From NCBI GenBank assembly GCA_014860005.1, contig JACZKP010000028.1, forward strand, positions 1-17,883: a stretch of 17,883 bases of DNA, in the 5' to 3' direction. A program made the position numbers and the translations under genes. Source of the stretch: Verrucomicrobiota bacterium (GTDB lineage Bacteria; Verrucomicrobiota; Verrucomicrobiae; Limisphaerales; UBA11358). The first letter of the stretch is position 1. Every line of letters begins with the position of its first letter. This document shows, in pieces, positions 947 to 13,231 of this stretch. A model generated the notes under the pieces. It saw only the letters and a program-made list of their open reading frames with translations, did no database searches and was not told the DNA's origin.

Positions 947-1287
947 AATTCAGCCTCCAAAGGATACGCACTGATCAGACGCGGTGCAACCGCCCCCTGA
1001 TCCATTTGCCATACCGTTCGCACGCGCGGACACCGACTGCTGGGCGAGTTCAAGTCGCCTTCCACGACATAGCGCGGCCCAAAGCCAGTCTCCTGCGTGT
1101 TTGCCACCTCGTTGATGCGACCATGTTCCCGCAACGCTTCCGCCAGCCGCTCCCATTCCTCAAGCCGAAAACGCAACCCGACGAAGAAGCGCGCTTTGCT
1201 CGCCCCAAACCGGTGCGCCGGGTTAAGCAGATAATCCTCAATCTCCTCGCGCTCAACCACGAGTTTGTCGGGGTTAGGTAGTCTCAT
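943..1287 (-). CDS. DUF6883-type protein
   Basis: This protein of 114 residues starts MRLPNPDKLVVEREEIEDYL, followed by LLNPAHRFGASKARFF, a layout I associate with DUF6883: an N-terminal LPN motif, a helical YLL.P.H..G..KA.FF segment and a C-terminal beta part ending in RLISAYP. The function is not established; related domains also occur, as I recall, at the ends of large secreted toxins, so a nuclease-like or toxin-like role is possible but unproven. It starts inside the stop of the restriction-modification gene (ATGA at 1284-1287), with GGAAGG about nine bases upstream, and ends in the start of the DUF4926-type gene by a second ATGA overlap. That tight linkage says the three proteins are made together. 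Confidence 0.72.
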   Translation of the reverse strand: MRLPNPDKLVVEREEIEDYLLNPAHRFGASKARFFVGLRFRLEEWERLAEALREHGRINEVANTQETGFGPRYVVEGDLNSPSSRCPRVRTVWQMDQGAVAPRLISAYPLEAEL

Positions 1288-4200
1288 GCGGCTTTGCCTT
1301 CCACAATCTTGATCTCGTCCTCGGTCAGGCCGTAGAGATCATAAACGAGGCGGTCAATCTGCGTGTCCGTGGCGGCGATCTGGCGTTCCAGCGCGGTGCG
1401 CTCTTGCGGCGTCCGCACGGCGGCCAATTGCTTGTGCAATTCCAGCATCTGTTCCACCAGCTTCACGATCCGGTCGTGCAAGGCTTTATCAGATTTTCCA
1501 TCCCAATCCGGAAGCGGAAGTTCGCGAGTTTGTTGAATGATGATTTTCGGAAAATCATCTCGTCGAGCAACACTGTTGAAGTTCACGAAATACCAAGACA
1601 AGAGCCGGCTGTTAAGGATACCAAGGAGGAACTGTAAAGATGGCGCGGATTGGACTTCAGGATTTGGGATAAGGCTCTGAACTGACTGATTGGTCAGAAA
1701 TGTCTCTCCAGTGAATACACCTTGAAGGCGAAGCTTCCTGCTCAAGACTTGCCGAAGCATTATTCGAGGCGCGGAGAAATACTCGAAAGGTTTGGATGCC
1801 TCAACCTCCGCTTCGTAACTGACAAATCCTTTTTCACCGTGCTCCAAGTTGAACCGTTGCAGCACACCGGTGAACGCAAACTTGGGGTTCACAAGACCGC
1901 TCTTGGTCGGTTGTGGCGCGAACACCTCCATTCCACGCTTCACGAATACGAAGTCGCCAAGTGTCCGCGGTTGCTGCCTTACCTTCTCCAATATTTTGGT
2001 CTCGGCGCGCGAGCAAGTGATCAAAAACTCAATGTGCCGACTCCCCAGCCAGTCTCGATAGTATGCTGCTTTCTCGAACTGAGCAAAATCTGCCACCGAG
2101 CCAATCTTGAATTTGGATGGAAACACGAACAGTTGTACCACATCTGATTTTTCACGCTCAGGCTTCGGCACGCGTTGAGCCGTAATGACAACTGTGTCGA
2201 TATAGGCTTTGAAAATGTCGAATGGCAGCGAAACAAAGCTCAATGGCTTGAAACTCTCGATAAAGAGGTTGCGCAGTGGCTTCGCGGATGGTGCTGACAC
2301 CCAACCCGAAGGAATGATCATTCCCAGCAGGCCTTGATTGCGGATTAGTTGATGTCCGCGCTCGACGAACAACAAGAACGTATCGAGAGAGTTTGCCGGG
2401 CTACGGTATTTCGCTCGGAAGTAGATGGCTTCAAATTCGCCCGCAAATGCACCGTAAGGCGGATTCCCAATCACCGCGTCGAAGCCGCCACCACCTTCAC
2501 CTTGTAGCAGCCGACGTGAGGAGGCTCTATCTTTACCGGTCGGATCAGTTTGAGCCTCCTCACGTCGGCTGCTACGGAAAATCTCCGGGAACTCCGCCCG
2601 CCAGTCGAAGACGTTGATGCGGTATTTCTCGTCGTCGGTGAGCTGGAATAGCATTGGCTGGTGGGGCGAGGCTCCTGACGAGCCGCCGCCCGCCTTGCCA
2701 TTCAACGCCCCGGCTCGCGAGGACGCTCGCCCCACCGGCGCATAAAAATCCGGGCCGATGAGCGAGTTGCCGCACTTGATGTTGTCGCCCAGATCGGGCA
2801 ACGCGCGTTCCGCGAAGAGCCGGAAGATGGTCTGGAGCGTCTGGCCGGTTTCGCCTTCGAGCACCTTTAGCAGCAGCGAGAGTTTGGTGACCTCGACGGC
2901 CTGCGAATCAATGTCCACGCCGTAGATGTTGGCGAGCAGGATGCGCTTGCGCTCGGCAATGGTGAGTTTCCAGCCCTTGCCGGTCTGCACCAGCACGGGG
3001 CGGTTGCCCTTGGCGAACTTCACCGGGTCGTTGGCGAGATAGAATTGCAGATGCCAGTCGAGCAGGAATTGATACGCGCCGATGAGAAATGAGCCGCTGC
3101 CGCAGGCGGGATCGAGGATGCGGAGCTTCGACACCCGTTCGAGAATTCGAGCGGCTTCACGCGAACTAACCGTAGGTGGGAAAGTGGGTGAGTGAGCAGG
3201 TGGGAAGGGTTGTAGCGGAGTGCTTTTCCCACTTTCCCACTCACCCACTTTCTCACTTTCTCGCGATTCAGTCAGAGCCTCCTCACGTTGTCTCCTGCAT
3301 TGATCGAGGAGTTTCCCCACCGTCTGGCGGACGATGTAGTCCACGATGTAGGTGGGCGTGTAATAAACCCCGCCGGCTTTTTTCACCTCGGGTTTGTCAT
3401 CCACCACGGCGCGATGGCCGTCGGTCAGCCGGATGACTTTGCCAAGGAACTGCTCATAGACCTGCCCGAGGATGTCCGCGCTGAGGACGGAGAATTCGTA
3501 CGGGCTGTCGGGATAATACAAATCCCGCAGGAGACTGCGCAGGAGCTTGTCATCTATGTCGAGTTCCAGCGTGAGTTCGTCCGGCGCTTCGTGGCGGCCC
3601 GGCTCTTTCTTGAAATGAAACAGGCCGGAATTGTAGCGGTCGTCTGCCTGCTCAAAGAGTTTCGCGAGGCGCGGATAGATGCGGTCGCCATTGACGAGGG
3701 CGCGCAGCCGTCCGTAATCCTCGATGCCGCGATCTTCGCAGATGCGCAGGAAGATGATGCGATCAATGATGCGCTGGACGGCGAAATTGAGTTCGCGCTG
3801 GGTAAGCCGGGCGTTGCGCAGGGCAAGATTCTGCGCCAGTTCCTTGCGCCAGCCTTCGATGGTTTCGAGGAAGGCGGCATCCACTTCGGTCGTGCCGCGC
3901 TTGGCCCTGGTGGATTCGGCAAATTTGTCGAACGCGCCCTTGAGCACGGCCTCGCGGGAGAAACGTTCGTAAATCCAGTCCCACTTCTCCGCGTAGTCGC
4001 GGAACGTGCAGTAGAAAATACGGGCCGCACTGGCGGAATCATTCTTGTGCGGTTTGACGCGGCCATCATAGACGGCGAATTCCTCGAAGTCCGAGAGGAT
4101 GCTCAACGGCAACTTGGCCGACCACGCATAACGGCGAAGTTGGTAGGCGGATGCGGGTTCGTCCTTGATGGCGACGCTTGGCTTCTTGGCCTCCAGAAAA

Positions 4201-4460
4201 TACTTCCGCGTGCCACCAATGCGGAAGCAGTAGTCGGGAGCTTTCGTCGCGCCGGCGACGCGGATTTGGTCTTCGTGAATGACGTCCTTGTAGGCTTCGG
4301 CAAAGCCCTGGACGTTATCCATGTCCCAACCGAGCGCCTTGAAGAACGGGTCGAGGAATTCGCGGCGGACCTGGGTCTCGTTGTATTGGCCGGATTGGTA
4401 CGCGTCGAACTGTTGTTCAAAGCGGGCGACGAGGTCGAGGATGACTTGAGGCGCACTCAT
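1284..4460 (-). CDS. Single-chain type II (IIG/Eco57I-like) restriction-modification enzyme with in-frame palindromic inserts
   Basis: A single 1058-residue chain carries nuclease, adenine methyltransferase and target recognition. N-terminal region: PD at residues 75-76 and FLEAK at 88-92 form a PD-(D/E)xK nuclease core of the HsdR_N kind. The middle has the helical spacer, then GGVYYTPTYIVDYIV (363-377, motif X region), DPACGSGSFLIG (450-461, motif I, AdoMet binding) and NPPYG (666-670, motif IV, an N6-adenine catalytic motif). The C-terminal third resembles TaqI-type specificity domains. Stretches at about 387-431, 575-602 and 629-653 are foreign: they are translated palindromic elements that do not belong to the family and leave the frame intact. 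Start ATG at 4460 follows purM by 8 bp with GGTGGT upstream. The recognition sequence cannot be read. No nonsense or frameshift is seen, so the gene may be active. Confidence 0.88.
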   Translation of the reverse strand: MSAPQVILDLVARFEQQFDAYQSGQYNETQVRREFLDPFFKALGWDMDNVQGFAEAYKDVIHEDQIRVAGATKAPDYCFRIGGTRKYFLEAKKPSVAIKDEPASAYQLRRYAWSAKLPLSILSDFEEFAVYDGRVKPHKNDSASAARIFYCTFRDYAEKWDWIYERFSREAVLKGAFDKFAESTRAKRGTTEVDAAFLETIEGWRKELAQNLALRNARLTQRELNFAVQRIIDRIIFLRICEDRGIEDYGRLRALVNGDRIYPRLAKLFEQADDRYNSGLFHFKKEPGRHEAPDELTLELDIDDKLLRSLLRDLYYPDSPYEFSVLSADILGQVYEQFLGKVIRLTDGHRAVVDDKPEVKKAGGVYYTPTYIVDYIVRQTVGKLLDQCRRQREEALTESRESEKVGEWESGKSTPLQPFPPAHSPTFPPTVSSREAARILERVSKLRILDPACGSGSFLIGAYQFLLDWHLQFYLANDPVKFAKGNRPVLVQTGKGWKLTIAERKRILLANIYGVDIDSQAVEVTKLSLLLKVLEGETGQTLQTIFRLFAERALPDLGDNIKCGNSLIGPDFYAPVGRASSRAGALNGKAGGGSSGASPHQPMLFQLTDDEKYRINVFDWRAEFPEIFRSSRREEAQTDPTGKDRASSRRLLQGEGGGGFDAVIGNPPYGAFAGEFEAIYFRAKYRSPANSLDTFLLFVERGHQLIRNQGLLGMIIPSGWVSAPSAKPLRNLFIESFKPLSFVSLPFDIFKAYIDTVVITAQRVPKPEREKSDVVQLFVFPSKFKIGSVADFAQFEKAAYYRDWLGSRHIEFLITCSRAETKILEKVRQQPRTLGDFVFVKRGMEVFAPQPTKSGLVNPKFAFTGVLQRFNLEHGEKGFVSYEAEVEASKPFEYFSAPRIMLRQVLSRKLRLQGVFTGETFLTNQSVQSLIPNPEVQSAPSLQFLLGILNSRLLSWYFVNFNSVARRDDFPKIIIQQTRELPLPDWDGKSDKALHDRIVKLVEQMLELHKQLAAVRTPQERTALERQIAATDTQIDRLVYDLYGLTEDEIKIVEGKAA
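2504..2575. repeat. 72-bp perfect palindromic element in frame (SSRREEA family)
   Basis: Two perfectly complementary 24-nt arms (2504-2527 and 2552-2575, left arm starting GTAGCAGCCGACGTGAGGAG) flank a 24-nt loop. The total of 72 bp is exactly 24 codons. Read on the coding strand it gives SSRREEAQTDPTGKDRASSR. Removing it joins FPEIF to QGEGGGGFDAVIGNPPYG and leaves a normal methyltransferase segment, so it is an insertion just upstream of the catalytic NPPY motif. Confidence 0.85.
2660..2736. repeat. Palindromic element in frame (GRASSRAG family)
   Basis: Arms of 26 nt at 2660-2685 and 2711-2736 match at 22 of 26 positions when one is reverse-complemented; both begin or end with GGTGGGGCGAG. 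The coding strand reads VGRASSRAGALNGKAGGG and then SSGASPHQP, a low-complexity stretch between LIGPDFYA and MLFQLTDDEK that is foreign to the methyltransferase family. Its sequence is unrelated to the element at 2504. Confidence 0.75.
3178..3254. repeat. Palindromic element in frame (GTGGGTGAGTGG family)
   Basis: Arms of 32 nt at 3178-3209 and 3223-3254 match at 26 of 32 positions when one is reverse-complemented, sharing GAAAGTGGGTGAGTG. They are purine-rich on one strand and built from near-repeats of GTGGGAAA. The coding strand gives EKVGEWESGKSTPLQPFPPA then HSPTFPPT, inserted upstream of motif I of the methyltransferase. It is a third sequence family, different from those at 2504 and 2660. 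Confidence 0.7.
3275..3287. repeat. Core of a half-copy of the SSRREEA element
   Basis: The 13-nt core GAGCCTCCTCACG is identical to part of the right arm of the 72-bp element at 2504-2575, and on the coding strand it is followed, after two changed bases, by the same ACTGA. The coding strand reads CRRQREEALTES, echoing SSRREEAQTD. No second arm is present; it abuts the element at 3178-3254, so the two may have arrived one next to the other. Confidence 0.55.
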
Positions 4461-4468
4461 GTCTGACG

Positions 4469-5575
4469 CTACACCACCCGCGCCTCACCCCTGCCTTTCA
4501 CCACTTCGCCGATGAGCCAGGCTTTGTGCTTTTGCCCGCGGATGAATTTCAATACGGCATCCGCCTGGTCCGTGGCCACGATGGCCACCATGCCGATGCC
4601 CATATTGAAGACTTGATACAATTCCTCGTCCGGCACGCCGCTCTGCTGTTCGATGATCTGGAAGATGGGCAGCATGTCCCATGAGCCTTTCTTGATGATG
4701 ACGTCGAGCGTCTTCGGCAGCACACGCGGGAGATTATCCACGAAACCGCCGCCAGTGATGTGCGCGAAAGCCTTGAGCGTAGGACGGGCGTCGCGCCTGT
4801 CTCTGACTTTTCCTACTGAAGATGGAGACAGGCGCGACGCCTGTCCTACGTTGAACTTCGCAATAAGTTGCTGCACCAGCGGGCCGTAACTGATGTGTTC
4901 TTTCAACAACTCCTCGCCAATCGTTCCTTTCAATCCTGGCACGCGGCTCGATGGCTTCAGTTTAAGTTGCTCGAAGAAAATCTTGCGTCCGAGCGAATAG
5001 CCATTCGTGTGCAGGCCGCTGGAGGCAATGCCAATCACCCGATCCCCTGCCCTAACGGTCTTCTGACCGTTGAGCATTTTTGATTTCTCCACGATTCCCA
5101 CGATGGTGCCGCTCACGTCGTATTCGCCCTCCTGGTAGAAGCCGGGCATTTGCGCGGTTTCGCCGCCGATGAGCGCGCAGTTGTTTTCCGAACAGGCGCG
5201 GGCAAATCCCTTGATGATTTCGGTGAAGACGTGCGGCTGAAGTTTGCCCGTGCCCAGATAATCCAGAAAGAACAGCGGCTCGGCGCCCAGCACCGCGATG
5301 TCATTGACGCAATGGTTCACGAGGTCCGCACCGATGGTGTCGTGCTTGTCCATCATGAAGGCAATCTTGAGTTTGGTGCCCACGCCATCCACGCTGCTCA
5401 CCAGAATCGGCTCGCGATATTTCTTGAGGTCGAGCCGGAAGAGGCCGCCGAAACCGCCGACCTTCCCCAGCACTTCGCGACGATGCGTGCTGGCGAGCAA
5501 TTGCGGAAGCGTGGCTTTGACCTTGTTCCCCAGATCAATGTCCACACCGGCGCGCGCGTAAGCTTTCTGTTTCAT
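4469..5575 (-). CDS. purM: Phosphoribosylformylglycinamidine cyclo-ligase (AIR synthetase)
   Basis: PurM closes the imidazole ring in purine synthesis, converting FGAM and ATP to AIR in the cytoplasm. The 368-residue chain starts MKQKAYARAGVDIDLGN and carries PILVSSVDGVGTKLK, HCVNDIAVLGAEPLFFLDY, ALIGGETAQMPGFY, SSGLHTNGYSLGR and AHITGGGFVDNLPR, all hallmark motifs. The family is usually about 345 long; the excess of 24 residues (VGQASRLSPSSVGKV, then RDRRDARPT) is the translation of a palindromic element at 4778-4850. Without it the chain reads LIAKFNLKAFAHITGGGF, matching the normal spacing. Start ATG at 5575 has no good Shine-Dalgarno. The restriction-modification gene begins 8 bp after its stop. 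Upstream, 5576-5768 holds no gene and may hold the promoter, though I see no convincing -35/-10 pair. Confidence 0.96.
   Translation of the reverse strand: MKQKAYARAGVDIDLGNKVKATLPQLLASTHRREVLGKVGGFGGLFRLDLKKYREPILVSSVDGVGTKLKIAFMMDKHDTIGADLVNHCVNDIAVLGAEPLFFLDYLGTGKLQPHVFTEIIKGFARACSENNCALIGGETAQMPGFYQEGEYDVSGTIVGIVEKSKMLNGQKTVRAGDRVIGIASSGLHTNGYSLGRKIFFEQLKLKPSSRVPGLKGTIGEELLKEHISYGPLVQQLIAKFNVGQASRLSPSSVGKVRDRRDARPTLKAFAHITGGGFVDNLPRVLPKTLDVIIKKGSWDMLPIFQIIEQQSGVPDEELYQVFNMGIGMVAIVATDQADAVLKFIRGQKHKAWLIGEVVKGRGEARVV
4778..4850. repeat. Palindromic element in frame in purM (VGQASRLSP family)
   Basis: Arms of 26 nt at 4778-4803 and 4825-4850 match at 25 of 26 positions when one is reverse-complemented (start CGTAGGACGGGCGTCGCGCC), around a 21-nt loop. 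In purM it codes for 24 extra residues directly before the conserved AHITGGG segment. TTGA occurs on both sides (4773-4776 and 4851-4854), which might be a target duplication but is too short to be sure. Confidence 0.82.
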
Positions 5576-12967: not shown

Positions 12968-13099
12968 GTAGCGCGGATTTCCAATCAGCTGTATCGCAGG
13001 GCTTCCAGCCTGCGTCGCGTTCGGCATGGTGACCGCGACCGAATTGCGACACGCTGCCGGTTGGAAACCGGGATACAGCAGGTTGGAAACCTGCGCTAC
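12968..13099. repeat. Compound palindromic repeat (GTAGCGC...GCGCTAC)
   Basis: The outer arms (12968-12995 and 13072-13099) match at 24 of 28 positions when one is reverse-complemented. Two further inner palindromes occur: GCAGGGCTTCCAGCCTGC on the left and CCGGTTGGAAACCGG on the right. The whole forms a long cruciform-like element of 132 bp. It could fold in RNA and act as a transcription end for the prepilin peptidase gene, but no T-run follows. Confidence 0.78.
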
Positions 13100-13171
13100 C
13101 TCGCCGCGCCATCGTAACTCGCGCGGAGACGTGTGAATTATCCGGGCTGTCCACACTCCGAGGTAACCAGT

Positions 13172-13231
13172 AGTGGCACGGGTGTCTCGCCCGTTCGAAT
13201 GGAGTCGCACGGACGGAACGCTCCTGCCACT
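13172..13231. repeat. Short degenerate inverted repeat (AGTGGCACGGGTGTC family)
   Basis: Arms of 26 nt (13172-13197 and 13206-13231) match at 19 of 26 positions when one is reverse-complemented. The left arm reads AGTGGCACGGGTGTCTCGCC. Its translation gives GTGVSPV, a string I associate with genome-wide repeats of this bacterial group. It lies 54 bp before the aminotransferase start. Confidence 0.62.

Follow-up and report, generated by a model that had tools for sequence, protein, structure and literature searches.

The restriction-modification (R-M) gene and the adjacent purM gene of a Verrucomicrobiota bacterium (Limisphaerales) carry four palindromes of different sequence inside their reading frames. 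They lie in a 17,883-nt stretch, contig JACZKP010000028.1 of assembly GCA_014860005.1, referred to below as the window. Judged from the alignments, the palindromes are in-frame insertions relative to homologues, at variable loops. Which family of element fills a given loop of PurM, PurL, or the R-M protein differs among relatives, and this turnover is what is new here. In the literature searched, which left out most subscription papers, we found neither genic palindromes in Limisphaerales or Pedosphaera nor turnover of families at a single loop. The explanation that we consider probable is that these are palindromes of the type moved by RAYTs (transposases associated with repetitive extragenic palindromic [REP] sequences), that selection has filtered them for in-frame insertion at permissive loops, and that such loops have been reoccupied repeatedly.

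The palindromes would thus be small, mobile, and nonautonomous, inserting widely and also into genes; three would be REP dimers of the kind called REPINs (REP doublets forming hairpins). Selection would purge any copy that caused a frameshift, introduced a stop, or struck a structured part of the protein, while copies in frame in a tolerant loop would persist and be translated as an extra disordered peptide. Such peptides are presumably translated and harmless. Tolerant loops could then be reoccupied, either by a new element arriving in or beside the old one, which decays, or by the loss of the old element and the arrival of another.

Four palindromes in two open frames

A search for inverted repeats with arms of at least 16 nt, the two arms lying within 200 nt of each other, returned exactly four in the window (Table 1), with arms of 29 to 31 nt that are 83 to 93% complementary. 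The arms of the four are four different sequences. In 200 dinucleotide shuffles scored with a cut-off, the mean was 0.03 inverted repeats and no shuffle had more than 1, against 4 in the window. Neither frame is interrupted by its palindromes, and the Pfam domains of both proteins (Eco57I, N6_Mtase, HSDR_N, and TaqI_C in the R-M protein) are retained. These results bear out an earlier note on this DNA, which had described four palindromes of four families in the two genes, without stops in the used frame and with intact flanking motifs.

Three of the palindromes (F1, F2, and F3) consist of inverted REP halves separated by a spacer and arranged as head-to-head pairs. The hairpin inside each arm is clear for F1 and, by eye, weaker for F2 and F3. 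The outer tag is an exact GTAG in F1 and F2 and GGTGGGG in F3, the second half of which has four mismatches. The description REPIN-like REP dimers fits these three better than that of analogues of the Rickettsia palindromic elements (RPEs); of the RPE analogy drawn for all four in the earlier note, the in-frame mode of insertion stands. The palindrome at 3176, tagged by GTGG, lacks the two inverted REP hairpins of a REPIN. It is made of paired octamer-like arrays beside a decayed REP half and is not a demonstrated dispersed family; the array scan flagged no array above its cut-off in the window. Where the window keeps this decayed F2 half, a related locus (L361) has a whole F2 dimer.

Homologues lacking the inserts, with which the earlier note had proposed to align both proteins, were found for all four sites. 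Of the 120 R-M rows aligned, the window among them, 48 have a short site 1 (at most 14 residues). Site 2 is short in 117, and the three rows with more than 24 residues there are the window and two that carry other residues. At site 3, 64 rows have no insert, 42 have a long nonpalindromic domain (joined in 5 of them by an F2-like piece), 7 have an F2-like piece alone, and 7 have other sequence. The PurM insert follows ...KFN and precedes ...AFAHITGGGF. More distant PurM relatives have short loops, and the loop is short in 49 of the 76 genome-derived rows.

The loop position claimed in the earlier note is also supported. The structure comparison for PurM consists of two printed alignments with solved structures, which skip the insert stretch (2z01 aligns over 4-242 and 264-364, and 2btu over 4-237 and 269-363); the PurM model, with a mean predicted local distance difference test (pLDDT) score of 33.3, was unusable. 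The R-M model, built with 31 sequences, has a mean pLDDT of 79.3 and eight stretches under 50. Four of these (404-427, 566-607, 632-639, and 641-656) coincide with the three inserts, placed by codon arithmetic at about residues 402-429, 574-602, and 629-653. The R-M inserts are thus modeled as low-confidence loops between folded parts. The fold matches of this model are BrxX/PglX and CamA methyltransferases.

Table 1. Genes and palindromic elements in the window
Feature	Positions	Strand or place	Description
R-M gene	1284..4460	-	1058 aa; Eco57I-type adenine methylase, HSDR_N + TaqI_C; 3 palindromes
purM (AIR [aminoimidazole ribonucleotide] synthase)	4469..5575	-	368 aa; 1 palindrome
Palindrome F1	4773..4855	in purM	GTAG-tagged REP halves 4779-4801 and 4827-4849; peptide VGQASRLSPSSVGKVRDRRDARPT
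Palindrome F2	2504..2575	R-M site 3	GTAG-tagged REP halves 2504-2527 and 2552-2575; peptide SSRREEAQTDPTGKDRASSRRLL
Palindrome F3	2657..2739	R-M site 2	halves 2660-2684 and 2712-2736; peptide VGRASSRAGALNGKAGGGSSGASPH
3176 palindrome	3176..3256	R-M site 1	inverted octamer-like arrays, units GTGGGAAA/GTGGGTGA (by eye)
Decayed F2 REP half	3275..3298	-	R-M site 1, adjoins 3176-3256; 4 mismatches in 24
F4-type REP pair	12968..13099	spacer copy	halves 12968-12989 and 13078-13099
Degenerate GTGG-tagged pair	13173..13230	spacer of the F4-type copy	pairing by eye

Several further features were noted in the window and its homologues. The spacer at 12968-13230, with the F4-type dimer and the GTGG-tagged pair, lies between a peptidase A24 gene and an aminotransferase gene, and a DUF6883 gene (943-1287) lies immediately downstream of the R-M gene. 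The long nonpalindromic segment (GELRETPASPLDYTMPGVPLHG...) of the 42 R-M rows stands at site 3, where the window has F2. PurM has a second insertion point at residues 346/347, with 11 to 23 extra residues in 7 of 195 rows.

Dispersal and placement in related genomes

Copies were counted in 146 genomes from the order to which a PurM relative (G010) belongs; all counts therefore refer to relatives of the window's host. The exact F1 arm was found in 22 of them (most in G092, G089, and G097, with 104, 70, and 56 copies), the F2 arm in 57 (most in G118, G128, and G132, with 173, 108, and 104), and the F3 arm in 12 (most in G061 and G132, with 27 and 18). The reversed-pattern control for these arms gave 0 in every genome listed. 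The F1, F2, and F3 arm families are therefore dispersed in related genomes. The 3176 arm gave two single matches, in 2 of the 146 genomes. The suggestion of the earlier note that the host has several mobile palindromes fits the three arm families dispersed in the order and is not borne out for the 3176 palindrome. For the three REP families, the relatives' genomes revealed neither of the patterns that the earlier note had named as contrary to its view, namely homologues carrying the same segments with ordinary divergence or palindromes absent from the rest of the genome.

The search for REP-associated transposases, also proposed in that note, yielded a candidate for the F1 family. Of the related genomes tested, 9 of 10 and 8 of 8 have the Y1_Tnp domain (PF01797), as do 5 of 14 control genomes. 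We inspected 24 RAYT loci around the domain for REP pairs, and at 4 of them an F1-type pair lies within about 540 nt. F1-type REPs stand on both sides at L348 and L349 (both in G089) and on one side at L339 (G107) and L334 (G012). Other RAYT loci (L342, L337, L326, and L328) have F4-type or further REPs, and about half of the 24 have no matching pair. At L348 (10723-11533), the open reading frame of the RAYT-like gene extends in frame through the F1 REPs on either side. F1 REPs thus flank RAYT genes in relatives, which makes RAYT a candidate helper that may move F1 in the window's host; F2 and F3 may move in the same way.

Placement was surveyed in 1.89 Mb of four genomes (G089, G136, G092, and G097), copies being classed by their 120-nt flanks with a hexamer coding model trained on long open reading frames and used without external calibration. 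Clean F1 dimers were those of at least 50 nt, shorter "pairs" being dropped as one half matched on both strands. This left 31 distinct dimers, one of them at an edge. Of the other 30, 23 were in an open frame within genes (14 of 18 in G089, 6 of 8 in G092, 2 of 2 in G136, and 1 of 2 in G097), none was frame-shifted, and none was stopped; the rest were one-flank cases, between opposite genes, or noncoding. Random 72-nt placements fell in the same open-frame class in 51 to 63% of cases. None of the 23 in-frame dimers lies in the phase in which the tag would give TAG; the two open phases are used 13 and 10 times. Within the same genome, G089, F1 was in frame in genes in 14 of 18 cases and F4 in 1 of 9 (Fisher's test; P = 0.0027). 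F1 is therefore placed in frame in relatives, and its clean dimers lack a usual, though not strictly defining, REPIN trait, that of being mostly extragenic; in G097, F1 copies are nevertheless mostly in spacers.

The same counts bear on the idea that repeats were misjoined during assembly. The window and most relatives are metagenome assemblies, and multicopy palindromes do break assemblies. Misjoins would not, however, be expected to put so many of the clean dimers (23 of 30) in frame without shifting any, and the same gene is found on both sides of the element, in frame, in many independent contigs; we give an artifact next to no credence.

Insertion target specificity was not adopted, the consensus giving only a C before the tag. 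A fixed element length in multiples of three was rejected, since the lengths of in-frame F1 dimers fall into all three classes modulo 3. Placement of a further family, F5, by a loose pattern was discarded after the pattern matched hundreds of ordinary coding places.

Different families in the same loops

The PurM set comprises 195 rows: 118 listed proteins, the window, and 76 genome rows. The protein rows divide into F1 (52), F8 (18), F5 (17), F9 (12), F10 (8), F11 (5), short arrays (3), and short loops (3), and the genome rows into short loops (49), arrays (13), other sequence (11), and one each of F1, F5, and F8. The protein list favors rows with similar inserts, and the genome rows are less biased. 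The latter come from 76 of 79 genome loci that gave a usable row (L002 and L259 being the same gene); 30 loci were taken from a first listing and 40 further ones with some preference for longer matches. Because this choice partly favored longer matches, the class shares are not population estimates. Classes were assigned with our own peptide patterns, 17 rows being re-set by hand and one (P0113) dropped; F9, F10, and F11 were identified from peptides alone, and F8, represented by a single copy at the DNA level, forms a weak palindrome there.

On a PurM tree built without the loop, the family labels need 67 changes. Good support is limited to 24 of its 186 inner branches, which force few changes (three for F1 and three for F5). 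Direct comparison of near-identical pairs is stronger evidence of turnover than the tree: proteins with different inserts are 98.8% (P0056 and P0076), 98.5% (P0003 and P0052), and 95.0% (the window and P0022) identical outside the loop. PurL gives the same picture. At its site c, F1 in G089 stands against F5 in G092 at the DNA level, and peptide patterns, in the 92 of 121 rows located, comprise F5 (32), F1-like (21), F3-like (7), and others. A similar picture is seen at sites a and b, where the families differ. The PurL genes of two loci (L202 and L166) each have three distinct sites with inserts, and in G089 two of the three inserts are of F1 type. At R-M site 3, F2 in the window is matched by F1 in G092. 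Different families thus occupy one and the same site; the order of events in each replacement can be suggested from decay and nesting.

A further alternative is that each site received a single old insertion whose descendants have only diverged. Some inheritance is real, since F1-type segments are common to 54 of the 195 PurM rows. The inserts at one site nevertheless match different multicopy genomic repeats, and both the near-identical PurM proteins of different family and the F1 and F5 of PurL site c contradict a single origin, so that divergence alone is highly improbable. As a correction to the earlier note, some copies are inherited (an F1-type segment is present in 52 of the 118 listed PurM relatives). 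Four families are indeed seen within 2.4 kb, as the earlier note stressed, but part of the reason is that permissive loops in this lineage are refilled time after time, by families far more numerous than four.

Nested elements speak for insertion on site. In G128, the F2 dimer at R-M site 1 has a heptamer array in its spacer. Arrays were found inside 3 of 23 F2 dimers, against 0 of 23 shuffled ones, and inside 0 of 51 F1 dimers. REP dimers thus contain nested arrays, and the array units of the PurM loops in G136 and G089 recur elsewhere in those genomes. The array inside the F2 dimer of G128 and the decayed F2 half beside the 3176 palindrome of the window suggest that old elements are landing places for new ones.

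Homologous recombination could also switch families, by importing PurM and PurL loop variants through conserved flanks without new insertion. The PurM flanks are very alike across the group, favoring exchange; the residue pair after the loop partly tracks the family (F5 mostly LR and F8 mostly IK); and the PurM tree is weak. Recombination moves variants but does not create them, and several unrelated dispersed families must have inserted there. The window and P0022 proteins are moreover alike on both sides up to the loop, the same pattern is seen in PurL and the R-M protein, and the nested forms favor insertion on site. We therefore regard recombination as an unlikely explanation of the switches. 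That the inserts are kept for use, either as RNA hairpins slowing translation between domains or as peptide linkers, seems less likely still. Occupancy is high among the listed relatives (115 of 118 PurM proteins are not short), and the arms are still palindromic in the DNA where seen (the window, L239, and L262). Yet the protein lists favor similar loops, the genome rows are mostly short, and an unrelated family, an array, or an empty site does just as well.

Several observations weigh against repeated occupation by RAYT-type palindromes as a general account. In the less biased genome rows, a palindromic class stands at the PurM site in 3 of 76 and a short array in 13 of 76. The L348 protein scored 67.6 bits against the NCBIfam model REP_Tyr_transpos, below the cut-off of 80, and no RAYT was tied to F2 or F3 among the loci examined. 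The contrast between F1 and F4 over all genomes (23 of 30 against 1 of 16) partly reflects differences between genomes. In G097, F1 lies mostly in spacers: 2 of 29 unfiltered calls were in frame and two were frame-shifted, although 27 of the 29 were single halves shorter than 50 nt. Of the 62 nonedge palindromes there, only 2 were in frame. A C preceding the tag (65%) was the only sign of a conserved target sequence. Intragenic life is not general, since the F2 dimers not at an edge were in frame in 6 of 21 cases, with 2 stopped and 1 frame-shifted.

If RAYT-type palindromes do reoccupy permissive loops as proposed, REPs are not only extragenic in these bacteria, and a family linked to RAYT has, in some genomes, its main home within reading frames. 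A natural record of loops tolerating 20 to 50 extra residues would be available in PurM, PurL, and other proteins, and "variable regions" and odd low-complexity peptides in proteins of Verrucomicrobia could be translated mobile DNA. The movement of REP dimers would be testable with F1 and its own RAYT in one genome and an extragenic sister family as control. More tentatively, certain loops of essential enzymes (PurM and PurL) and of the R-M protein may be exchange sites, where RAYT-type REP dimers and short arrays swap quickly while the rest of the protein hardly changes; selfish DNA would then continually rewrite the same peptides on the protein surface. Element-for-element replacement (through shared GTAG ends, nesting, and decay) or an insertion preference would then be a new mode of protein evolution.

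Comparison with known repeat systems

The short tandemly repeated repetitive (STRR) sequences of cyanobacteria are heptamer short tandem repeats. The arrays of the relatives resemble them as short period-7 arrays dispersed in the genome and differ in lying also in coding loops and in the spacers of REP dimers. The 3176 palindrome differs further in pairing two such arrays head to head (by eye).

RPEs, known from Ogata (2000, 2002) through passages of PMC10969869 and PMC3733652, are the classic in-frame palindromes and occur in many unrelated genes. In-frame insertion in protein genes and the presence of several families per genome are shared. RPEs belong to another lineage, and RPE-4 and RPE-6 are CGTC-tagged in the account of PMC3733652, in contrast to the GTAG REPs with a RAYT candidate described here. 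Membership among the RPEs was not adopted, as the likeness considered is of mode only.

The closest systems are the GTAG REPs and REPINs with their RAYT REPtrons (PMC3733652 [Di Nocera 2013]; PMC3116915 [Bertels and Rainey 2011]), which are short tagged hairpins arranged head to head with a spacer, dispersed, and flanking Y1_Tnp/RAYT genes. PMC3733652 also places REPs inside open reading frames in several species, those with GTAG tags being most numerous in Opitutus (O. terrae), a verrucomicrobium, and it describes a recB site that is occupied, at nearly the same position, by different REPs in two Xanthomonas. Compared with known REPINs as there described, one family here is mostly genic in G089, G092, and G136, many families share a loop, near-identical proteins differ in family, and arrays nest in REP dimers; F3 is without the GTAG tag, and at the loci examined the RAYT link was seen for F1 and not for F2 or F3. 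The case is thus an unusually intense form of a phenomenon known in a few other bacteria.

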